Origin: Acidimicrobiia bacterium
Lineage (GTDB): Bacteria; Actinomycetota; Acidimicrobiia; Spongiisociales; Spongiisociaceae
DNA length: 37,829 nt
Reading direction: 5' to 3'
NCBI GenBank assembly: GCA_009841075.1
Contig: VXMP01000049.1
Coordinates: forward strand, 1 to 37,829
The position numbers and the translations under genes were made by a program. The notes below the pieces were generated by a model that worked only from the letters and a program-made list of their open reading frames with translations, had not been told where the DNA came from and made no database searches. Shown here in pieces: positions 3,129 through 15,326 of this stretch (within the stretch, counting starts at the first letter, position 1; each line of letters begins with the position of its first letter).

Positions 3129-4391
3129 TCAGGATTGTGGGGGAGACCACAGGCAGTCGATGGGGCGCACATAGAGGCGGTCACCCATGGGAAGAGAGTG
3201 GTCGCCGGTGTGCAGGAGGAGGCCGGCCCGGAAGGTGCCCGGCGCAACTTTGTCCAGTTTTTCACGGAACCAACGCAGATGATCCAGATGCTGGGAGCGG
3301 GGTGAGGTGGTCGCCTTGATCTCGACCGCCACCAGATTTCCATTGGTTTCGCTAAGGATGAGGTCGATTTCCCGGCCCTTGTGGTCGCGATAGTGGGAAA
3401 GGTTAACCCTCCGTTCTGAGGCCGAAAGCTGTCGGGCTATCTCGCCGATGACGAAGGTCTTCAGGAGGGAGCCGGCGAGGGGCGAGGTGGGCGAACTCAG
3501 GGAGGCGGCATCCGTGCCCTGCATGGCGGCGGCCAGGCCGGAGTCGGTGAGATAGAACTTGGGCCGTCGGCCGACACCTCCGGCCAAACTACGGGACCAC
3601 GGGGGGAGCTGGTGAACCAGGAAGACGGTCAGTAGCCACCCCAGGTAGTAGGTGACGGTGGGACGGCTTATCCCTAGCTTTCGAGAGGCGTCCGATAGGT
3701 TGACCGGCCGTCCGGTGAGCGAGGCGGTCCATCTGAGCAAGGATTCCAGTTCGGAGTCTTTGCGGATGTCGGCCAGAGCCACGATGTCACGTTGGACGAC
3801 CGTATCCAAATATCCCTGAAACCAGCGGCTTCGGCGGCCCAGGGGAAGGTCGACTACTTCCGGGTAGCCTCCCCGGCATACCTTCTTGAGGTATTCGTCA
3901 CGATCAAGTCGGGGTGGAGATATCGGTTCGGGGTGACCCTTGAACCAGCTGTCGATCTGGGTGGGGGAGGTTCCGGTTATCTCGGCTTCCGAGAGTGGCC
4001 AAAGCCGGTAGATTTGGATTCGTCCGGCCAGGGATTCGCTGATCCCCGCCACGGTAAAAAAATTGGTAGAGCCGGTGAGGATGAACCGGCCCGGCGTCCT
4101 CTCCTCGTCCACCATTCGCTTCACAGCCAACACCAAACGGTCGCCGCCCAGCTGAACTTCGTCTATTACCAGGGGGTAGCTTTGATGGGAGAGGAAGGTG
4201 ATCGGGTCTTCCAGGATGCTCGCTCGCAGGACTTCGTCGTCCATTGACACGTAGGTGCCTCCCCGTTCCTGGGCGATCATCCTGGTCAGGGTGGTTTTGC
4301 CGCTTTGTCGGGCACCGTGGATCAGTATTACCCGAGCCCACTCTAAGCCGTCTTCAATCTGGTAACGAAGGTGGCGGTTGAGGGCTTCCAT
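3129..4391 (-). CDS. AAA ATPase with DUF4143 C-terminal region
   Basis: The 420-residue protein has a Walker A (GARQSGKT, residues 26-33) and Walker B (VIDEVQ, 75-80), the layout of the AAA_14 plus DUF4143 family. A winged-helix-like stretch lies in the middle (LSDASRKLGISRPTVTYYL). Near residues 340-357 the C-terminal part has EIDLIL and then VAVEIKA, which resembles the D...ExK core of PD-(D/E)XK nucleases often noted in this family. The molecular role of the family is poorly understood, and I do not assign a reaction. It sits between the SNF2 gene and the methylase with loose spacing on both sides, unlike the overlapping genes upstream. Its 5' leader is made entirely of a 23-bp tandem array that ends 19 bp before the ATG. 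AGGAG and GGAAGG motifs lie between array and start. It may be a later insertion in the defence operon, or its ATPase component. Confidence 0.9.
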   Translation of the reverse strand: MEALNRHLRYQIEDGLEWARVILIHGARQSGKTTLTRMIAQERGGTYVSMDDEVLRASILEDPITFLSHQSYPLVIDEVQLGGDRLVLAVKRMVDEERTPGRFILTGSTNFFTVAGISESLAGRIQIYRLWPLSEAEITGTSPTQIDSWFKGHPEPISPPRLDRDEYLKKVCRGGYPEVVDLPLGRRSRWFQGYLDTVVQRDIVALADIRKDSELESLLRWTASLTGRPVNLSDASRKLGISRPTVTYYLGWLLTVFLVHQLPPWSRSLAGGVGRRPKFYLTDSGLAAAMQGTDAASLSSPTSPLAGSLLKTFVIGEIARQLSASERRVNLSHYRDHKGREIDLILSETNGNLVAVEIKATTSPRSQHLDHLRWFREKLDKVAPGTFRAGLLLHTGDHSLPMGDRLYVRPIDCLWSPPQS

Positions 4392-4410
4392 TGCCTTCCG
4401 ATCCTACTCC

Positions 4411-4778
4411 TAATTTACAAACGCCGCCGCCGCTGGGTTACAGATGCGACGGGGGATAGTTTACAGATCCTTCCCTGGATAGTTTACAAATGCTACTCGA
4501 AGTAGTTTACAAATTCTACCTTGGGTAATTTGCAAACGCGCCTCTGGATAGTTCGCATACCTTACCCTGAGTAGTTTACAGATGCTACTGGGGATAATTT
4601 GCAGATCCTTCCTCGAGTAGTTTACAGATGCGACCGAGGGTAGTTTACAAATTCTACCTTGGATAGTTTACAAATTCACCTCTGGCTAGTTTGCAAATCT
4701 GACTGAAGATAGTTCGCAAATGCCACCGAAGGTAATTTACAAACCTTACCCTGGATAGTTAGCAAACTCCCCCCGCTC
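4411..4778. repeat. Tandem array of 16 x 23-bp degenerate repeats
   Basis: Sixteen consecutive units of exactly 23 bp, with no insertion or deletion, fill 368 of the 411 bp between the SNF2 gene and the ATPase start. Written on the plus strand, the conserved first half of the unit is TAGTTTACAAAT; the remaining 11 bp vary more. Unit positions 1 (T), 5 (T), 8 (C), 9 (A), 11 (A) and 17 (C) are identical in all 16 units. Positions 3, 7, 10, 12 and 18 vary almost only by transitions. The core TTTRCAAA is a dyad and becomes a perfect palindrome (TTTGCAAA) in several units. Because 23 is not a multiple of three, the array is not coding. It could be an operator or iteron array controlling the ATPase gene, or a transcribed structured leader. 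Transposon-end or satellite origin is also possible. Confidence 0.95.
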
Positions 4779-4802: not shown

Positions 4803-7667
4803 TCAGTCGACCGCAGGCAAGAAAATGTAGACGCCCAGCAGGTCGGTGGGATGTTGGGGGGTGACCTTCACCTGACCGCCTCCAGGGGCCGAGCCTCGTA
4901 TCACCTGCCCTCCCCGGCGGCGGTCGGCGGCGCGCACCCGGGCGTGGGTCTCGGCTAGGGCTTCGGCCCGACGGTCGGCCTCGGAATGGATATGGGGCCG
5001 CCAGGTTTCCTCGGCGGACAATACCTCCTCCAGGAAATATCGGGCGGCATCAGGGGAGACATTGCCGGAGGGGGTGGCGGACAGGAGGGCTTCGGCTTCT
5101 GCCTCGGGGAGCCAGACCGGAGAATCGGGCGCGCCGGCGAAGGCGAGCAGAAAGGCTTCCTCGGCCAGCATGGGATGCTGCCTCTGGCGGCTGCCGGTTT
5201 CGAGGGTCATCCGAGAGCGGCACAAAAACAGCGTGGTACGGATGGCTACCTGTCCGGTTCGCATCACCCCGCAGCGGGCGGCGTGGCTCTGGGCGGCGAG
5301 AACCGGATCCAGGGCGGTGTCGAGCACATAACCGGCCAGCCCTCCCACCGCCGGGCTGGTGCGGGACCACAAAACCGTGTTGCCGGATACCGGCGGCTCG
5401 AAGCGGGCGTACACAGAGTCGCTGGTCACAGCCAGGGCGTCCTTGACCTCGGGGGAGATCTCTCTCAGGTCGAACACGGCCTCCACCTCCCTGCCGGAGT
5501 CGTCCTGCACGGACCGGATGAAGGCCCCTTCGCTGCTTAGCACCTCTTTCATGAACCGTTCCGTGTCGGCACCCGAACCGATCGCCTCCCGCATCTTCTC
5601 CAGTTCATCGGCCACGGCGTCGGGGTCGATGGTGTGCTGAGCGAAGAGCGACCTCCGTTTGACCTCGGCCTCTCGGGCCCGCTCCCATTCCAGGTCGAGA
5701 GCCGAGGAGTACGGGCTCATCACCTCTTTCATCCAGTCGAAGCGGCGCTGGGCCGGCATGTTCTCGCCAAGCAGGACGTTTTCCGCCAGCGCCTCGATCA
5801 CCTCGTTGGTGGCACCAGGCACCGGAATCGACACCCCCAGCGCCTTACGGATCGCCGTGTGCTTGTGCAGAAGCACCTTGAGGACGGTCTCGTCGATGTG
5901 GTTGTCCTCGCCCCAGTAGGTGACCACCCGCACCTCCTCAGCAGGTTGGCCGAAGCGGTCCACCCGACCCTCCCGCTGTTCGAGTCGGGTGGGATTCCAG
6001 GGCAGGTCGTAGTGGACAACCGCCGAGCAGTAGTTCTGCAGGTTGATGCCCTCGCTCAGACAGTCGGTGGAGACCAGCACCGGAAAGCTGTGGTCGCGCA
6101 GCTCGGACACCCGGGTTTCGCGTTCGTCGGGGGGTAGCTGTCCGGTAACCACCAGCACCTCGGCACGGGAGGAGCGGAGGCGATCCCGCAGCTCTCGGCC
6201 CACGTATTCGGCGGTTTCGATGAAGCGGCAGAACACCACCGGACGGAAACCGTCTTGGAGCAAATTCCTGACCATCTTGGTCAGCTGAAGGAGCTTGAAG
6301 TCGGATTCGCCGGTCAGGTCGTCGGCTCGGCGGGCGAACTCGCGGAGGCGACGGGGGATGGTGTCGGTCTCGTTGGAACCCGGTATCACGTCTACAACTT
6401 CCTCGCCCTCGTCCAAGTCGAGCAGGGTGCGCCGACCCAGCTCATCGATCTCTTCGGCGGTTTCGGCCTCGGCGGTCTGGGCTCGGGTGCGCATGGTGGC
6501 GGCTGCGGCGGCCGGACTTGAGGCCAGCGCCCGTAGCAGGCTCAGGGCGGACCACCATCTGAACCGCTTCTCCCGTTGGTCGGAGGAGGGTTGTCGCACC
6601 CATTGGCGGGCGTAGGTCAGAACGTCCTCGAACAGGGTCTGATAGTCGGGAGAGAGCAGGTAGGTGGTTTCGCTGTCGTCCCGCTTCGGGAAGGAGGTGT
6701 CGGTCCGCAGATAGTGTTGGATGTCGGACCGACGGCGTTGCACCAAATGGCGGGCCAGACGGTCGCGGTGAGGGCGGTTTTCCTCACCGGCCAGGTCGTC
6801 GGGAAGCTCTTTAAAGTCGGCGTCGAGCAGGCCGAGCAGCGACCGAAACGATTCGTCCTTGCCCGAATGGGGGGTGGCGGTGACCAGGACCAGGTGGCGG
6901 TCGGGGCGTTGGGCCAGTTTGGAGACCAGCAAATGGCGCTGGTGGCGGGCACCGCGGGCTCGTTCGTTGGCGGCGCAGGTGTGGGCTTCGTCCACGATAA
7001 CCAGCTCAGGGCAGGATTTGATGAAGTCGTCCCGGCGGCGAGGGGATTTGATGAAGTCCAAGGACACCACGAAATGGTCGTAGACGTCGAATAGGGACTG
7101 GCCCACCGTCAGTTGGCGTTCCAGTCGGGCAGCGGTGGAAGAGAGCACCAGCTCGGCGTCGATGTGGAACTTGGATAGGAGCTCCTGCTGCCACTGTCCG
7201 GCGAGATGGGGTGGGCAGAGGACGGCCAGCTTGCGGGCTTCGCCGCATTCCAGCAGCTCGCGGGCGATAAGGGTGGCTTCGATGGTCTTGCCCACCCCGA
7301 CGTCGTCGGCGATGAGGAGGCGGACCGGGTCGAGCCGGAGCGCCATGAGCAGCGGCACCAGCTGATAGGGACGGGGCTGCACGGCGATTCGTCCCGCCGA
7401 ACGGAACGGCCCGGCACCGGCCCGGAAGCCGAGACGAAGGGCGTCGCGCAGCAACCGGGCGGAGGAGGCGTCGCCCAGGTGAATGGACGGGTCGGGTGGG
7501 TCGAAACCGGCCGGAGCTACTGCTTCCAAGGAGGTGAGGATCCCGGTTATCTCTTCGTCGGAGCCTCCCAGCGGACGAACCATCACCAGGTCATCGCCGG
7601 ATTCAGGGAGGATCACCCAATCCCGGCCACGGGCTCGAACCAGGGATCCCGGGGAGAAAGAGCTCAT
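4803..7667 (-). CDS. SNF2-type helicase/translocase (DrmD-like)
   Basis: This 954-residue superfamily 2 ATPase has Walker A DDVGVGKT (residues 121-128), DEAH (226-229), TATPHSG near 262 and motif VI (QREGRVDRFGQ) near 566, the arrangement of SNF2/HepA-like helicase-related proteins. The N-terminal 90 residues look like a small beta-rich domain, and the C-terminal third is alpha-rich and charged. Proteins of this build are DrmD in class 1 DISARM and also occur in other defence islands. They translocate along DNA using ATP and do not necessarily unwind it. The ATG follows the stop of the small upstream gene by six bases, with GAGG just before it, so the two are probably translated together. The array and ATPase gene follow downstream. 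The assignment as SNF2-family is firm; the DrmD match is by architecture only. Confidence 0.93.
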   Translation of the reverse strand: MSSFSPGSLVRARGRDWVILPESGDDLVMVRPLGGSDEEITGILTSLEAVAPAGFDPPDPSIHLGDASSARLLRDALRLGFRAGAGPFRSAGRIAVQPRPYQLVPLLMALRLDPVRLLIADDVGVGKTIEATLIARELLECGEARKLAVLCPPHLAGQWQQELLSKFHIDAELVLSSTAARLERQLTVGQSLFDVYDHFVVSLDFIKSPRRRDDFIKSCPELVIVDEAHTCAANERARGARHQRHLLVSKLAQRPDRHLVLVTATPHSGKDESFRSLLGLLDADFKELPDDLAGEENRPHRDRLARHLVQRRRSDIQHYLRTDTSFPKRDDSETTYLLSPDYQTLFEDVLTYARQWVRQPSSDQREKRFRWWSALSLLRALASSPAAAAATMRTRAQTAEAETAEEIDELGRRTLLDLDEGEEVVDVIPGSNETDTIPRRLREFARRADDLTGESDFKLLQLTKMVRNLLQDGFRPVVFCRFIETAEYVGRELRDRLRSSRAEVLVVTGQLPPDERETRVSELRDHSFPVLVSTDCLSEGINLQNYCSAVVHYDLPWNPTRLEQREGRVDRFGQPAEEVRVVTYWGEDNHIDETVLKVLLHKHTAIRKALGVSIPVPGATNEVIEALAENVLLGENMPAQRRFDWMKEVMSPYSSALDLEWERAREAEVKRRSLFAQHTIDPDAVADELEKMREAIGSGADTERFMKEVLSSEGAFIRSVQDDSGREVEAVFDLREISPEVKDALAVTSDSVYARFEPPVSGNTVLWSRTSPAVGGLAGYVLDTALDPVLAAQSHAARCGVMRTGQVAIRTTLFLCRSRMTLETGSRQRQHPMLAEEAFLLAFAGAPDSPVWLPEAEAEALLSATPSGNVSPDAARYFLEEVLSAEETWRPHIHSEADRRAEALAETHARVRAADRRRGGQVIRGSAPGGGQVKVTPQHPTDLLGVYIFLPAVD

Positions 7668-7673
7668 CTGCCT

Positions 7674-7862
7674 CTATTTACCGGCTTTAGAATTACGGAA
7701 CGCCTCGACCGCCTCCGCAATAGCATCCTGGCCCTCGGAGGCTCTGCCAGGGATGCGAGGTCGCGAGCCTGCCTGCGCTATCGAGGACGCCTCGGCTTCC
7801 AGACGTGCCGCTTCCTTGGCCAGCTCCTGCTGTCGCTCCCTTTCCCGTCTCTTGCGAAACAC
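7674..7862 (-). CDS. Small charged helical protein in helicase operon, unknown function
   Basis: A short open frame of 62 codons starts with GTG at 7862, eleven bases after the stop of the large helicase gene, and ends six bases before the SNF2 start. A TTG at 7895, overlapping the upstream gene, would give 73 residues. The N-terminal half is a run of Arg, Glu, Gln and Ala (RKRRERERQQELAKEAARLE) that should form a long charged helix or coiled coil. The C-terminal part is Ala/Glu-rich. No known domain is recognised. Its position inside an otherwise gap-free operon argues that it is a real gene and perhaps an adaptor between the two helicases, but that role is inference. It could also be a non-functional spacer that keeps translation coupled. 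Confidence 0.6.
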   Translation of the reverse strand: MFRKRRERERQQELAKEAARLEAEASSIAQAGSRPRIPGRASEGQDAIAEAVEAFRNSKAGK

Positions 7863-7872
7863 AGCCCTGAGC

Positions 7873-10800
7873 CTACTCGCCCCGGCCTGGCCCAAACACC
7901 GGCGGGTGGTGGCGGATGATTTGGTCCCAGTCGTCCCGTAGGCCGAAGCGGATCACCTGGTAGCCGAGGTTCATCATCCGGCGGTTGGCCTCTTGGTCAC
8001 GTTTGGCCCGTTCGGGATAATCGTGATGGGGGCCGTCAACGTAGATCACGGCGCAGGCATCGTCATAGACAAAGTCGGGCCGGGCCTTGGCCGCCTTGAA
8101 GTAGACCTGAGCCCGATCGGGCATCCGGTAGCCACCCTTCTTAAGCCGGTCCAGGAACTCCTTCTCCAGACCCGATTCGGGTGGCGGCCCCTCCGGTGAA
8201 CGGATGACCTCGGCGTCACGGAGTTGGGCGAGCCGGTCGGCAAGGGTGTCACGATCCAGCAGCTGATGGTCCATCTGGTTCCGGTAGGTGAGCAGGCACT
8301 GGTAGCAGGCCGCTTCGCACCGATCTCCATCCTGAGAATCGCTCATATCTTCGAGCGTGTCGGGATCGAAATGGCAGCGCCGCAAGGCTTCTCGGGCGAC
8401 CCGTCTCCAGATGGGTGCGTCAAGGATTAGGCGGCGCAGCACTCCGGCACCACCCTCCGCCGATTCGTAGAACAGGAGGAGTCGGCGATCATCTCGACTA
8501 GGCAACGGCTCTGCGGCCAGCTCACCGGGTTCCAGCTGGAATACCGCCTCGAAAGAGGCTTTCAGGGCGGCTTCAAGGGAGGCCATGGTTGCCAGGTCCG
8601 GCGGCATAGACGGTTTCACCAGCAGGGCGTTGCGGGTGTCGGTGACGTAGGGAACCACCCGTTGGGTTTGAGCCGAGAGGGGATCGTCCTGGCTCGCAGA
8701 GTCCTTGTCCTGCCTACCCCAGACCCCGCTTTCGACGTCAAGGACGAAACCGTGTTGTTGGGGGTTCTTGCGCCGCCGCCATCCCTGGTTGACCCGCCAG
8801 ACGGTGGCGGTTTTGCCGTAGGCCAGCTCCAAGAGAGGTTTCCCGATTTCCTCCCCACTGAGGCCTGACCCTTCGAGAGACGCTGCCGTCACGGTGGCCT
8901 GGTCAATCTGGTAGCGGCCCGAATGCTCGGCGAACTGCACCCCCGAAATCAGCTCGTATCCGATCCGGAACCGCTCCTCCTCGTCGGAGGTGATGCGGTC
9001 GCGCCGCCTGGTCGAAACGTTTCTCATCCGGATCAGGTTGGTCCAGGTCAGGCCCAGCTCGGAATGGCAGTAATGGCATACGTCCGGCCCGGGCGGGGTG
9101 TTGATCTCGTGCATGTAGCCGCATTCGGTGCAGCGCTTGACCGTCTGGGTGATCAGTCTTCCCTCGTCTCCGGACGCAGAGGTTCCCGAAGCATTATCCG
9201 TCGGGTCGAGGATCACCCGGTCGATCAGGTAGCGAGCCCCCTCGTGATACAGGTAGGAGCGAGGGCCGAACTCGCTGATCGCCAGGAAACGAGGGCGTTG
9301 CAAGAACTCAACTCCCTCACGGCTACGGTTTCGTCTACCAGGGATGAAAGCCGAGAGCGGCAGACGCGGGAAGGAGTAGCCGGGCAGGAATCCTTCGGCG
9401 GCCAAATAGCGGTAGGTGTAGAAATCGGACTGGCCACGCTGGTCTGATTGGGCACGCAACAGGTCGAGTTGCTTTTCCGCTTCGGACCGCAGTCGGCGGG
9501 CTTTGCGGCGGTCCTCCTCGCTGCGGTTGGCGGACATGGCGATCTTGCCCTGCTCCCGCGCCTGGGCCAGAGCCGCCGAGTAGAGCGACAGCCATCTTTT
9601 CAGGGCGTCCTCGAAACGGCGGTGAATCTTATTCAAGGTGTCGGTCAACCAGGTGTCCGACCACCAAGGTGCATCGGCTAGTTCCGAGCCCATGCTTTCG
9701 AGAACCTTTTGGGCGCGAACCTTGGCTCTGGCCTTCAGATTGGGATCGTTCAGACTATCTCGGATCTGGTCGGTTATCTCCGGTTTGGTCTCCCCGTCGG
9801 TGAGGTCGAGGATGTCGCCCATCGACCTGCCCAGATCCAGCCCGCTCTCCGCCAACCAGACGGAATGGACATGGGCTCTAACCAGGTCTTCGTTGGTCAG
9901 GTCCACTCGGGGTGCCTCTACCTGACCGGAGATCATCTCCTCCTGATGGCCGAAAAAGTGCTGGTCGTGTGGGCTGCCAACCGAACAGTAGGTGAAAACC
10001 AGGGCAGGTTGTCCGCTACGTCCGGCTCGACCGGAACGCTGCGCGTAGTTGGCGGGAGTAGGGGGCACGTTCCGCATATTTACCACGTTCAGCTCTGAGA
10101 TATCGACCCCCAGCTCCATGGTCGGAGAGCAGAAGAGCACCGGCAGACGGGCCTCACGAAACTGTTGCTCGCGTTCGATGCGCTGCTCATAGGACACCTG
10201 GGCGGTGTGTTCCCGGGCTTCGATGCCGGATAGCTCCGAGCCGGAGGTCCGATAGCGGTCGACGAAATAAGGGTTGGTCGGCATCTCCTCGGGAGCGCCG
10301 GGCATCCGAATTTGATCAACATAGGGCTTGGTGCCGTCGCCGGACTTCCAGATCAGGGCGGCGGCCGGAATCTGCCACTGGGAGCCGTTTTCTCCGTCAT
10401 CGTCCACCGCCACCAGCAGTCCGTATCGGCGCAGGCGCTCGGCCATCTGGCGGATAATCTCGGTGGTGGAATCGACGGTTAGTGGCTCAGGCGAGAAGTT
10501 GGATAAACCGTCTTGTCTGCGCAGGAACTGGCCGAAGGCGCTTCGACCGGTCATGTATCTCCAGTCTCGGCCGTCGTATCTTTGTCTGGTACGGGTCAGA
10601 AAACGGGTGGAGGGCTCCAGTTGGCGAGAATCATCGGCCAACGACCAGGGACCGATCAGCCGCTGGTCGGCCCGCTGCACCAGCCTTTCCTGGTGGCGGC
10701 GATCCAAAACGTCCACCTTGATTCCCAGTTCACGGCGGATCCAGTCCAGCATCACGGTCAAAATCCGATGACGATGCTCGGGTCCGGCGTCTACCAAGCT

Positions 10801-13038
10801 CGGATGGCAGTCCTTCCAGATCGACTCGTCTTGGGAAAGCTCTTGGAGACACTGATATTCGATGGTGAGGAGGCCGGTCTGTTCCAGGTTGGGTTGGGTG
10901 AGGCGCCAGCCCCGTTTCAGGTCACGGTAGAGGCGATAGGCGAGAACCTCCCGCAGAACCTGGTCGGTATCAAGGGCAGCTCCTCCCCGTAGATCAGGGT
11001 CGAGGGCGTATTGGTCGGCGGGAAGGCCCAGCTTGTCGAACACCTGCTGGGAGAGATCGTCATGCCTAAGTCCGTCTGGTCGGCCCGCCGCTGCCTGCCA
11101 TAGGGCGGAGCGAAGTTGGGTTACCTGGACGAAATCGTTGAAATGGCCTGCCTGGAGGGAGGCGTCTTGGCGGTTGTCGGTGAAAGACAGGAGCTTGCGG
11201 GCCTGGGAGGGGAGGCGGCCATTCTGGCGCAGGAAATGGACCACGGCCAGCGACATGATGGTGGTGGCGGTGGAACGACCCTCCGAGCCGAGGGTGGCGA
11301 GCCGGCTGAAATCACTGCCGAGCCTACTCGGGTAGGACACCCCGCAGGCCAGGCAGAAACGGAAGGGGGTGAGCGTCCACCAGCCGGGCACGCCTCCTTC
11401 TGTAATGGAATCGGGGGAGAGTAGCCGACCATCAGGCATAACCTCCACCCGTTGCGGCACTTCGCCTCGTCGGTTAGGCCGCAGCCGACCGTTGGGGTCG
11501 AGCCAGGTAGGAGGCAGCCGGTCGAGAATGCGGTCGGAATCATCAGGCCAGGGGTGGTCATCGCTGAGATAGAGGAAACCGGACCGGTTCTCTTCTTCAA
11601 ACCGGTCCCTGAGGTCCCGGGGGGTCAGGATTTCTTCTTCGGAATTGTCCGGGGCCTGGCCTCGACGGACCACGTAGTAGTCCTGGCCACAGGCTCGGCA
11701 GAAAGACAACGGTAGGAGCACCCGGGTGCGATCGCCAGGGACGAAGCGCCGCCCTTGCAGGGTCAGGGCACGCTTGCCAGGGCTTTCCGGTGAGGCGTAA
11801 ACGGTGTCGCCCCGGCTGATGAACTGGTGCAGGCGGAAGGCGAATACCGGCATAGCGGTGGTCGGGTTTCGGATTTCGTGTCCGGCCAGCAGGTAGGAGC
11901 GAAGGGCGTTTTCGCAGCTTTCCTGGTCGATGTCGGTTAGCGCGGAAAGGCGAGCCGCTGCTCCCTCGTCTCCCTCCAGAGCCCGGGGAATAGCCCGTAC
12001 CAGACGCCCCTCTTCCTGGCCGATCCCGAATTCGGTTTCGATCCAACCGGACAGGGGGTCGGCGGCAAAGGCTTCAAAATCCTTCGGCGGTCGGTTCCGC
12101 CATATTGCCCGACCCAGCTCCGCCCGGTGGGTCGGATCGGAAAGGTCGGGTTCCGGGGTGAGCCGCCGCAAGGTTTCGCCGATGACATCTTCGGGGTGAA
12201 CCTTGGCACCGAACAGACGGGTGCCCACCTTGGCCAGGCGGGTAAGGCGTTCTTGGTGCCCGCCTTCGGTGGAAAGGGTGGCGGAAGTCCCAACGCAGCG
12301 GATGGCCGCCGAACCGGAGGCCTCCCTAACCCGCCGCACCAGGAGGGCAACGTCGGCACCCTGTCGTCCTCGATAGCTGTGTAGCTCGTCAAGCACCAGA
12401 AAGCGGAGATCGCCCATCGCCTTAACCAGGGCCTTATCGCGATAGCGGGTGAGGATGAGCTCCATCATCACGTAGTTGGTGAGGAGGATGTCGGGCGGGT
12501 CATTGAGGATCAGGTCACGGGCTTCCTGGTCTTCCTGACCTGAATATCTGTTGAAAGTGACCGGCGGGTTACTCCCCGGCAGGAACTTGGCGAGCTCCTC
12601 CATCTGGCTGTTGGCCAGGGCGTTCATCGGGTAGATGACGACTGCTTTAACCCCGGTGCCCGAGCCGGTGCGCAGGACGTGATCGACTATAGGGATTATG
12701 TAGGCGAGGCTCTTGCCGGAACCGGTTCCGGTGGTGAGCACGTAGTTGCGGTCGGCTTGGGCGGCTCGGATGGCCTCTTCCTGATGGCGATAGGGCTTGA
12801 TGGTGCCGAAAATATCCTGGCAATGGGGGTGGAGTAGTCCATCGTTGACCATTGATTCGACAGAGGTGCCGGTTTCAAAGGCCGGGTTGAGCCCGATCCT
12901 GGGGGGAGGCCAGAGCAATCCTTGATCCAGGGCGTTTTTCACCTCGGTGCGGATTCGCTTGTCACGAAGGCGCATGAAGCTGGTGGCGTACCTCCGGTAG
13001 TCGTCCAGAAGTTGGTCGCGGAGCTCAAAGACGTTCAT
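7873..13038 (-). CDS. Giant DEAD-type helicase with DUF1998-like region and C-terminal Vsr/DUF559-like nuclease domain (DrmA/DrmB-like)
   Basis: The 1721-residue protein starts with an SF2 helicase core: Walker A GTGSGKS (104-110), DELH (217-220), a GTSATLS segment, and motif VI (QRSGRAGRSGQ) near residue 1000. Several zinc-binding Cys pairs follow (CRAC near 446, CLAC near 563, CTEC/CHYC near 1300). Near residue 1578 the CYQCLLTYRNQ segment resembles the Cys cluster of DUF1998 proteins such as MrfA and DISARM DrmB. The last 80 residues (VYFKAAKARPDFVYDD, then VIYVDGPHHDY and VIRFGLRDDW) look like a Vsr/DUF559-type endonuclease fold. It therefore looks like DrmA and DrmB functions plus a nuclease in one chain. 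It overlaps the UvrD-like gene by four bases (ATGA). It is expected to unwind or translocate on DNA and possibly cut it. Confidence 0.93.
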   Translation of the reverse strand: MNVFELRDQLLDDYRRYATSFMRLRDKRIRTEVKNALDQGLLWPPPRIGLNPAFETGTSVESMVNDGLLHPHCQDIFGTIKPYRHQEEAIRAAQADRNYVLTTGTGSGKSLAYIIPIVDHVLRTGSGTGVKAVVIYPMNALANSQMEELAKFLPGSNPPVTFNRYSGQEDQEARDLILNDPPDILLTNYVMMELILTRYRDKALVKAMGDLRFLVLDELHSYRGRQGADVALLVRRVREASGSAAIRCVGTSATLSTEGGHQERLTRLAKVGTRLFGAKVHPEDVIGETLRRLTPEPDLSDPTHRAELGRAIWRNRPPKDFEAFAADPLSGWIETEFGIGQEEGRLVRAIPRALEGDEGAAARLSALTDIDQESCENALRSYLLAGHEIRNPTTAMPVFAFRLHQFISRGDTVYASPESPGKRALTLQGRRFVPGDRTRVLLPLSFCRACGQDYYVVRRGQAPDNSEEEILTPRDLRDRFEEENRSGFLYLSDDHPWPDDSDRILDRLPPTWLDPNGRLRPNRRGEVPQRVEVMPDGRLLSPDSITEGGVPGWWTLTPFRFCLACGVSYPSRLGSDFSRLATLGSEGRSTATTIMSLAVVHFLRQNGRLPSQARKLLSFTDNRQDASLQAGHFNDFVQVTQLRSALWQAAAGRPDGLRHDDLSQQVFDKLGLPADQYALDPDLRGGAALDTDQVLREVLAYRLYRDLKRGWRLTQPNLEQTGLLTIEYQCLQELSQDESIWKDCHPSLVDAGPEHRHRILTVMLDWIRRELGIKVDVLDRRHQERLVQRADQRLIGPWSLADDSRQLEPSTRFLTRTRQRYDGRDWRYMTGRSAFGQFLRRQDGLSNFSPEPLTVDSTTEIIRQMAERLRRYGLLVAVDDDGENGSQWQIPAAALIWKSGDGTKPYVDQIRMPGAPEEMPTNPYFVDRYRTSGSELSGIEAREHTAQVSYEQRIEREQQFREARLPVLFCSPTMELGVDISELNVVNMRNVPPTPANYAQRSGRAGRSGQPALVFTYCSVGSPHDQHFFGHQEEMISGQVEAPRVDLTNEDLVRAHVHSVWLAESGLDLGRSMGDILDLTDGETKPEITDQIRDSLNDPNLKARAKVRAQKVLESMGSELADAPWWSDTWLTDTLNKIHRRFEDALKRWLSLYSAALAQAREQGKIAMSANRSEEDRRKARRLRSEAEKQLDLLRAQSDQRGQSDFYTYRYLAAEGFLPGYSFPRLPLSAFIPGRRNRSREGVEFLQRPRFLAISEFGPRSYLYHEGARYLIDRVILDPTDNASGTSASGDEGRLITQTVKRCTECGYMHEINTPPGPDVCHYCHSELGLTWTNLIRMRNVSTRRRDRITSDEEERFRIGYELISGVQFAEHSGRYQIDQATVTAASLEGSGLSGEEIGKPLLELAYGKTATVWRVNQGWRRRKNPQQHGFVLDVESGVWGRQDKDSASQDDPLSAQTQRVVPYVTDTRNALLVKPSMPPDLATMASLEAALKASFEAVFQLEPGELAAEPLPSRDDRRLLLFYESAEGGAGVLRRLILDAPIWRRVAREALRRCHFDPDTLEDMSDSQDGDRCEAACYQCLLTYRNQMDHQLLDRDTLADRLAQLRDAEVIRSPEGPPPESGLEKEFLDRLKKGGYRMPDRAQVYFKAAKARPDFVYDDACAVIYVDGPHHDYPERAKRDQEANRRMMNLGYQVIRFGLRDDWDQIIRHHPPVFGPGRGE

Positions 13039-15326
13039 CGCATGGTCGCGTTAGGTTGGGTGGCTATCGACTCCTGATGATTGAAATGGCCGGTTACCCA
13101 GACCAAGGCTTGGCTGGGTTGGTGGTTGTAGAGGATTACCAACACGTCTCGGGCTCGGGTCATGGCCACGAACAGCTGAGAAATTTGTAGAAGGTGTTCC
13201 TCGTTGGCCTCTTCGACGGTCTTGTGTTTGCTAGGAGGCATAGGGAATTGGTTTTTAGTTAGTCCGGGCAGGAATACCGCCTTGAACTCCAGGCCTTTGC
13301 CACGGTGGAAGGTCCCAACCTTGATGAGAGAGTTACCCCTTCCGTCATAATCGTCCAACGACTGCACCCCTAACCGGGCGGCTTTGATGCGGGCGATGAT
13401 CTTGTTAACCAGCTTCTTATTTGGTGCAAGAACCCCAACGTCACCTGGCCCGATGTTGCTGTCTTGTTTGGTTAGGTCTTCAATCCGCCGCACCAACTCG
13501 TCCAACTGGGCCTCGGTGTTCCCGGCGTCCACCATCAGTGGGCTCGGCCCTCGCCGAACCGGGTCGGCTTTGGCTTCGGCCCGTAAGTAATCTTCGGCCA
13601 AGCCTTGGACAGGGGTGTCCCCGGCCATCGCCATGGCCGCTTCGATTATCTCGCCAGTGTTGCGGTAGTTGATGTTTAGGACAGTGGTGCGTCCCCGAAC
13701 CTCCAGGCCGGCTTGGCGAAGGGTGAAGCCACCGGGATAGATGCGCTGAGCACCGTCGCCGAGGATAAGCAGCCCGTCGGGTCGGTCCTGCTCTGGATGC
13801 GGGGCGTTTACGAGAGCCCGCAGGAACAGGAGGCCGGCCATGGTGATGTCTTGGGCTTCGTCAACAATGATTGACGAGTAGAGCGGCTGTTTAAGCCGGC
13901 GAGCATGGCGAAGGGCGCGCAAGCGGATATCGGGGAAGTCCATCACACCTCGTTCGGACATTTCCTTGTCCCAGGCCTCCCGTAACCGCCACATCTCGGT
14001 CCTAATATTCTGATCCATGGGGACTCGGCGACCGGTACGGGCGATCTGAAGGTATTCGTCTAGCACCTCAATGGCCCGGCCCTTGATGACTGCAGTTATC
14101 TCTTCTCGTATGTAACGCTTGGTAAAACCGCTGCGTTTGAGGCGTGAACCCGGAACTACCACCTGTTGGTAAGCAACCGAGAAGGCTTCCTCTACCTTCT
14201 TTTGGTTGGGACTGGGCCAATCTTGGGCCTCTCGACAGATGCGGTGGGCCAGGCTATCGACATGGTTGAACTCGACTTCGCCTGATAAAGCACTAGGAAG
14301 GCGTAGATACAGCGATTTGAAAACAGGGGGAAGGTTTTTGACGAAAGTGGTGAAAAGGACCGGTCGGGTTTTATCTTCTTCAGTACGGATAAGGCGGTTT
14401 TGGGTTTCTTGTCGTTGAGTGCGATTGCGTTGGGCCAGCCAGGCCGCCCGATGGAGTCCCACAACGGTCTTGCCGGTGCCGGCCGAGCCTCGTACCAGGG
14501 CCGGCCCCTGATAGCTCCGCCGTACGGCGGTCCGCTGGTCGGGGTGGAGAAAGATCATCCAGTCCTCGATCGGCCGACCCATTATTTCTTCAAGGAATGC
14601 GGGTTCGGTGCGGGTGAACCAGGCGGGCATGTTTTCGTCTTGGAGTTGGCGCTCGAAATCCAAGTCTTCCGCGGTGGCCGGCGGTGGGGTCGGGTTTACT
14701 TCTAGTTCTCTGACCCGAGCAGCTTCGGCGGCGGCTTTCTCTCCGTCGGGATGACCGTAGGCGATCAGGTTATAGCAGCGCTCAAAGTGTGTCTCACCCA
14801 ATAAGTCTTCCATTGCCAGGAGTTCGTCATCATGGTTGAGGCGGCGCAGGTGGGTCACCAAGTGGTCAGGAAATCCGAACTCACGGAGCTCTTTATCGGA
14901 CCAAGCCATTAAAAGCTGCCCTGCTCCGTCCGGGCGGCGGCCGAGATGGTAAGGACGATCCTCTCCTGATTCAGGGTTCTGCTCAATGACGGTGAGGGTG
15001 TGCACTTGAGGATCAAATCGGATGCTGATCCCCTTTACACGGTCGTAGACCTTGTGGTTGCCGAACAGAAGTAGGACGATGGTTCGGTTGAACAATTGCC
15101 AAACCACCCGGCGGTCGCTTCTCCGTCCTCCCACATCGGAGGCATAGATCTTGTGGCCGTTTTTTGCCTCGCCCACGCCGTGGGTATTGAGCTTGTTGTT
15201 CTGGAAAGGTCTAAGGCGAAGTTCGGACATTGTGTCTAGAAGGGCGGCCTTATTTTTGAGGGCGTCCTTGCGCAAGGCGTTAACGCTGTCCCAGAAAGAT
15301 TGCGTTTCCACCACGTGGTACGACAT
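13035..15326 (-). CDS. UvrD/Rep-type SF1 helicase with RelE-like N-terminal domain
   Basis: The 763-residue protein carries the SF1 helicase motifs: GSAGTGKT near residue 284, VDEAQDI near 490, NINYRNTGEI near 557, GTFHRGKGLEF near 675 and AMTRARDVL near 723. The first 105 residues do not belong to the helicase. The pattern of a helical start, then KLNTHGVGEAKNGHKIYASD, RVVWQLFNRTIVLLLF and a final HKVYDRV, resembles the RelE/ParE toxin fold. Fusions of this kind are known among UvrD-like proteins of defence islands. Whether the domain is an active ribonuclease is unclear. It is the first gene of the island operon, with GGAGG eight bases before the ATG and a candidate promoter at 15402-15429. 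DNA unwinding is the family activity; a role in phage restriction is inferred from the neighbours. Confidence 0.93.
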   Translation of the reverse strand: MSYHVVETQSFWDSVNALRKDALKNKAALLDTMSELRLRPFQNNKLNTHGVGEAKNGHKIYASDVGGRRSDRRVVWQLFNRTIVLLLFGNHKVYDRVKGISIRFDPQVHTLTVIEQNPESGEDRPYHLGRRPDGAGQLLMAWSDKELREFGFPDHLVTHLRRLNHDDELLAMEDLLGETHFERCYNLIAYGHPDGEKAAAEAARVRELEVNPTPPPATAEDLDFERQLQDENMPAWFTRTEPAFLEEIMGRPIEDWMIFLHPDQRTAVRRSYQGPALVRGSAGTGKTVVGLHRAAWLAQRNRTQRQETQNRLIRTEEDKTRPVLFTTFVKNLPPVFKSLYLRLPSALSGEVEFNHVDSLAHRICREAQDWPSPNQKKVEEAFSVAYQQVVVPGSRLKRSGFTKRYIREEITAVIKGRAIEVLDEYLQIARTGRRVPMDQNIRTEMWRLREAWDKEMSERGVMDFPDIRLRALRHARRLKQPLYSSIIVDEAQDITMAGLLFLRALVNAPHPEQDRPDGLLILGDGAQRIYPGGFTLRQAGLEVRGRTTVLNINYRNTGEIIEAAMAMAGDTPVQGLAEDYLRAEAKADPVRRGPSPLMVDAGNTEAQLDELVRRIEDLTKQDSNIGPGDVGVLAPNKKLVNKIIARIKAARLGVQSLDDYDGRGNSLIKVGTFHRGKGLEFKAVFLPGLTKNQFPMPPSKHKTVEEANEEHLLQISQLFVAMTRARDVLVILYNHQPSQALVWVTGHFNHQESIATQPNATMR

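Follow-up and report, generated by a model that had tools for sequence, protein, structure and literature searches.

A sixteen-unit 23-bp repeat array before an AAA_14-DUF4143 ATPase gene is an extreme form of a family-wide arrangement and probably a self-operator

Based on comparative analysis of a 37,829-nucleotide stretch of DNA from an Acidimicrobiia bacterium (contig VXMP01000049.1 of assembly GCA_009841075.1, here called the window), we found that the row of sixteen direct repeats in front of a gene for a DUF4143 ATPase is an extreme instance of a rule that holds for the gene family. Phase-locked arrays of this kind, mostly far shorter, recur directly upstream of homologous genes in other genomes and phyla. 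The array is probably a private cis-regulatory, multi-site operator for the adjoining downstream ATPase gene, bound by the winged helix of the gene's own product and autoregulatory.

The sixteen phased repeats given in a preliminary description of this DNA were borne out, and the register of 23 bp was held across all 16 units. At a lag of 23 the array has 217 matches in 345 comparisons, against 86.7 ± 7.9 (maximum 109) in 2000 shuffles, and unit positions 1, 5, 8, 9, 11 and 17 are invariant, exactly as had been claimed. The units are about 63% alike, and their pairwise identity is flat, with 13.6-15.4 of 23 positions shared at offsets of 1-12 units. Because this identity is even at all unit distances, the units are ancient and not fresh copies; their motif positions have been kept fixed. 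Tandem Repeats Finder gave a slight super-period, which hints at a 6-unit (138-bp) block. The dyad symmetry that had been proposed for TTTRCAAA was upheld in part: this core is palindromic to some extent, whereas the motif as a whole is a direct repeat. The array takes 368 bp of the 411 bp between the stop of the neighbouring helicase gene (4803) and the minus-strand ATPase start (4391), and ends 19 bp 5' of the ATG with GGAAGG in the gap; its GC content is 45%, compared to 61% in the ATPase gene. The features are collected in the table below.

Coordinates of the array and of the ATPase gene in the window
Feature	Position	Strand	Remark
Repeat array, 16 x 23-bp direct repeats	4411..4778	-	Core on the gene strand RTYTGYAAACTA plus variable spacer of about 11 bp
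Candidate -10 element TAAATT	4412..4417	-	Within the gene-proximal unit; sequence reading
Shine-Dalgarno-like GGAAGG	4394..4399	-	Between array and start codon; sequence reading
AAA_14-DUF4143 ATPase, 420 aa	3129..4391	-	PADLOC model PDC-S01; PDC-S01/COG1373 type
Walker A GARQSGKT, residues 26-33	4293..4316	-	
Predicted winged helix-turn-helix, residues ~213-262	3606..3755	-	AlphaFold2; proposed array reader
PD-(D/E)XK nuclease-like domain, residues ~329-410	3162..3407	-	Sequence and AlphaFold2 model

Genome-wide motif checks were made as pattern searches. The core TARTTTRCARA occurred 12 times in the 2.3-Mb assembly, 12/12 inside the window array and on a single strand, and a control pattern occurred twice; the profile is thus not scattered over the genome, in line with the linkage that had been expected. 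Two other classes of repeat were considered for the window array and rejected. A coding tandem repeat does not fit, as each of the six frames is interrupted by stops and a 23-bp unit is not divisible by 3. A CRISPR array, with its unique spacers of about 30 bp and cas genes, does not agree with a 23-bp period, gaps of about 11 bp and units this much alike, and none of the tested neighbours had a Cas protein as its best match, the matches being helicases instead.

In the order to which the window belongs, homologues of the ATPase were detected in 32 of 138 genomes, with up to 16 matches per genome, and the upstream DNA of 114 homologous genes was compared. Between -120 and -4 from the predicted start, identity at lag 23 was 0.409 versus 0.251 ± 0.007 at other lags (22 SD), and the signal was absent within the genes, after the stop codon and beyond -236. 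A score of at least 12 was reached at lag 23 by 80 of the 114 genes, compared to 12 of 114 at the best of 17 other lags. A wider scan covered lags 15-40 with a threshold of at least 14 and added 25 further genes from the phylum; it gave 76 arrays, with a period of 23 in 71, 22 in 4 and 24 in 1, and 0 of 139 shuffles came to this threshold over the same lags. The gene-proximal end of the arrays lies at a median of -19 from the predicted start. Three to four units is the usual size, and the window array, with 16, is the longest.

Similarly, 13 of 18 genes from held-out orders of the class, which had no role in finding the rule, scored at least 14. For 11 of these 13 the best lag was 22-24, and the other two had a best lag of 16 or 36, yet a 23-bp row was visible there as well. 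Plasmid genes of Pseudomonadota carry arrays of 22 or 23 bp, and a plasmid gene of Ruminococcus albus (Bacillota) carries one of 23 bp. A detectable array was absent in about 30-40% of the order members and in most of the 'canonical' PF13635 clade. The idea that the motif forms one contiguous 11-bp block in every array was dropped, since permuted columns look similar, so that units do not divide cleanly into block and spacer in every array.

Some individual loci deserve mention. At L199, outside the window's order but within the class, 5-6 near-identical units of 24 bp (TAGGGTATACGACGTTTCGCGYAG) precede a DUF4143 ATPase gene; this array is a recent expansion with period 24. At L058 (G000 contig 64) a single intergenic array, adjoining the plus-strand gene, is shared by two divergent DUF4143 ATPase genes. 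An inverted repeat at the ATPase start codon and no clear direct-repeat array were seen at L155 (Azotobacter plasmid) and L163 (Moraxella plasmid). Two motif copies 32-33 bp apart precede distant members at L185 (Methanomethylovorans plasmid) and L187 (Bacteroides plasmid), which is weak evidence for what is possibly a three-turn spacing class. Many homologues, including paralogues such as G000:C57:8511-9710, L068 and L083, contain one or two in-frame stops but have kept the array, and the family therefore turns over fast. The DUF4143 ATPase gene TT_P0211 of Thermus thermophilus was reported to be 6.6-fold up with a plasmid plus Argonaute (PMC4406477). Our locus L162 is probably this gene; a 22/23-bp array was looked for there and not found.

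Control of expression by RNA structure, one of the roles suggested previously, would make the array a 5' leader element. The window array does fold better than its shuffles (z -3.8), a score that is unsurprising for 16 copies of a partly palindromic core. However, the mean z over 58 arrays was only -0.88, the well-formed arrays at L100, L048, L103, L094 and L031 were near zero or positive, and no Rfam family matched at the array site. A structural role is thus not general, and we regard the leader reading as very improbable.

Each gene has its own unit sequence. When a window unit was left out and scored against the profile of its own array it gave 22.9 bits, whereas the best site in any other paralogue array of the same genome gave 0.5 bits. 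The other paralogues of this genome mostly showed the same specificity for their own array, L052 and L057 just weakly, and in a genome-wide pattern search the motif of a second paralogue was present in its own array alone. As the motifs are private to each paralogue, a shared host factor as the binder is argued against; a factor other than the ATPase could nevertheless bind the array.

For proteins less than 40% identical, motif similarity was no higher than background (0.26); above 80% identity it reached 0.77, a relation that shared descent alone could explain. Between orthologues, however, the motif columns conserved within the array were 0.84 identical and the variable spacer columns 0.51, with the motif ahead in 95 of 97 comparisons. 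This exceeds what shared descent alone gives, and the motif columns are under selection. Selection on fixed spacing and on a few contacts, as in a multi-site operator, had been proposed from the window alone and is now supported by arrays that recur across genomes and phyla and by motif columns kept in orthologues. Of the relatives whose arrays are readable, those closest to the window protein (61-65% identical) show four units; their cores, GTTTGTCAATTA and ATTTGCAATATA among them, are close to the window core, and relatives at 72% have fewer, degenerate units. The simplest account is therefore that the window array grew out of an ancestor with about four units. The earlier expectation of the same array upstream of related DUF4143 ATPases was hence right as to the presence of arrays, and not as to the exact 23-bp profile, which is not conserved, about four units being usual.

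Differences in unit number among genes, and the near-identical units of the one 24-bp array, are what a neutral tandem repeat expanding through slippage would give. Against this stand a period fixed at 22-24 bp across phyla, motif columns kept beside freer spacers, and the flat identity between units. The common period and position rule out a slippage repeat, to which we attach a negligible probability.

The period follows the protein. On a tree of 153 proteins, arrays with period 22 (or 24) need 6 changes, compared to 14.5 in shuffles. In one clade, formed mainly by Pseudomonadota together with one genome of the window's order, 11 of 13 have period 22, and four Pseudomonadota genes with period 23 are placed beside the window's own clade. 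In a clade of 32 'canonical' DUF4143 proteins arrays are nearly absent. The period goes with the protein clade and not with the host, and this therefore indicates the protein as the reader of the array.

The gene following the array had been called an AAA/DUF4143 ATPase, and rightly so: the protein scored 79.9 bits for AAA_14 and 123.6 bits for DUF4143, above the curated cut-offs of 27 and 28.1, and matched PADLOC model PDC-S01 with an E value of 3.9e-139. An AlphaFold2 model built from 39 input sequences had a mean pLDDT of 92. From its secondary structure and the sequence, the protein is predicted to consist of an AAA+ domain, a winged helix (helices 213-224, 232-239 and 243-255, strand 259-262) and a PD-(D/E)XK-like domain, in which E341 and E357 are invariant and D343 and K359 nearly so. 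The closest solved folds to the model were the archaeal AAA+ ATPases PDB 2qen and 2fna, with a TM-score of just 0.41-0.43 over the query, followed by RuvB and clamp loaders; the CARF nuclease Card1 and the STAND protein Avs5 stood lower down the list. By sequence, solved structures matched the window ATPase in P-loop regions only, and no full-length relative was among them. In one survey (PMC12988326), PDC-S01 ranks fourth in frequency among the defences of prokaryotes and is described as an ATPase that carries a fused PD-(D/E)XK-type domain, with experimental validation still pending for most candidates of its kind.

Self-binding and autoregulation best explain the combination of a winged helix, two-turn sites before the start, a sequence private to each paralogue and a period tied to lineage. 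Features of an operator are present in the form of sites at the gene start, specificity for the cognate gene (weak for L052 and L057) and a predicted DNA-binding domain. Each unit of 22-23 bp, about two turns of DNA, would offer one site of about 11-16 bp plus a free spacer. Copies of the ATPase may dock on consecutive sites by means of the winged helix in their DUF4143 part and so form an ordered, oligomeric row on the DNA. Such a row would cover the promoter and repress, or possibly poise, its own gene, and a separate site sequence for each paralogue would allow ten or more copies in a genome without cross-talk. The usual operator would have 3-4 sites; with its growth to 16 in the window, cooperativity of binding should rise, or a larger store of protein be kept on the DNA.

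Among 14 plasmid genes, 13 have predicted promoters that overlap the array, but most of these score barely above shuffles. In R. albus the two hexamers of TTGACT-17-TATACT occupy equivalent positions in two adjacent units, and at L160 and L174 TTGACT and a -10-like hexamer are 16 bp apart in 22-bp arrays; in these cases the promoter layout fits autoregulation. A general rule by which the -35/-10 spacing equals the repeat period was discarded, as it fits R. albus, L160, L174 and L175 and not most others. A sliding-window partial correlation of protein segment with motif gave at most 0.15 per window and no clear peak at the winged helix.

Recurrence, location and private motifs would equally be expected if the bound array held or licensed the protein, as a tether or nucleation platform for a nuclease acting elsewhere or as a mark of self, with any effect on transcription secondary. 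The PD-(D/E)XK-like domain with its conserved E341, D343, E357 and K359 speaks for such a role, as does an array of up to 16 units, which is beyond the needs of a promoter. However, the arrays lie directly 5' of the start with no downstream signal, which is the position of an operator, and most have 3-4 sites. We consider tethering or licensing unlikely. A more far-reaching and even less likely variant is a private DNA address system, in which an ordered ATPase-nuclease oligomer on its own array would silence the gene and keep the nuclease inactive on self DNA. Disturbance of the row by invading DNA or a phage factor would then free and induce the nuclease, paralogues would act as lock-and-key units blind to one another, and the threshold would depend on how long the array is (4 to 16).

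The genes are present in several copies and are found on plasmids close to transposases, and an AAA+ ATPase and a nuclease-like domain, separate in TnsC and TnsA, are joined here in one protein. The array might on these grounds mark either where a mobile element ends or a locus for replication or partition, in the manner of iterons, Tn7 transposon-end sites or IS21-type ends. This is contradicted by the lack of a partner array 3' of the gene, by the plasmid records examined, where neither a transposase nor Rep is a constant neighbour, and by the different motifs of paralogues in one genome, so that we give it hardly any credence. Tn7-like and IS21-like ends were rejected because there is no downstream array. 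The likeness to iterons put forward in the preliminary description did not hold up either: no replication gene lies at the array, and the flanking genes are the ATPase and a helicase and not a replication initiator.

Upstream of the array, the minus strand (4803-15326) contains three helicase genes: an SNF2/BrxHII-like one (best PADLOC match DpdE), a YprA/DruE-like one with an MZB domain and a UvrD/GajB-like one. By sequence they look like a DISARM/Druantia/ARMADA-type set, and the three together resemble the ARMADA type (PMC12458937); no PglX-like methyltransferase was present among the window ORFs tested. The ATPase had been placed inside a defence operon, and this was not sustained. In the flanks of about 1.5 kb that were fetched around relatives of the SNF2-type helicase, no DUF4143 ATPase was found in any of four genomes (one locus being a contig fragment). 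Conversely, the closest ATPase orthologues have no SNF2-type helicase nearby, the sole helicase match being a partial one of 32% at L019. The ATPase is an independent unit beside the helicase operon and not a fixed member of it.

An upstream array was not described in the open-access literature consulted, in the portions available, on DUF4143, COG1373, AAA_14 with direct repeats, PDC-S01 and MNS/STAND ATPases, although such absence is not proof. Nor did this literature, to the same extent, yield a description of a mechanism for the widespread PDC-S01 candidate defence family. A cis element found family-wide implies that the protein, or something cognate, reads DNA gene-specifically at a two-turn step. 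The arrays supply a target for gel-shift and reporter assays for each gene copy, and specificity switching in a large paralogous family becomes testable.

In kind, the element is a multi-site operator; what appears to be new is that an ATPase-nuclease should have a phase-locked array which is private to each gene and found family-wide. With plasmid iterons the arrays share phased direct repeats of about two helical turns beside the gene of a DNA-binding protein, but they stand at sites without a replication gene, are chromosomal and multi-copy, and differ in motif from one paralogue to the next. With the operators of toxin-antitoxin systems and phage repressors they share sites at the gene start for a helix-turn-helix protein, which are private to the system and overlap predicted promoters. 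They differ from those operators in their long head-to-tail rows of about four to sixteen sites in a locked 22-24-bp phase, and in that the probable reader is an AAA+ ATPase with a nuclease-like domain.
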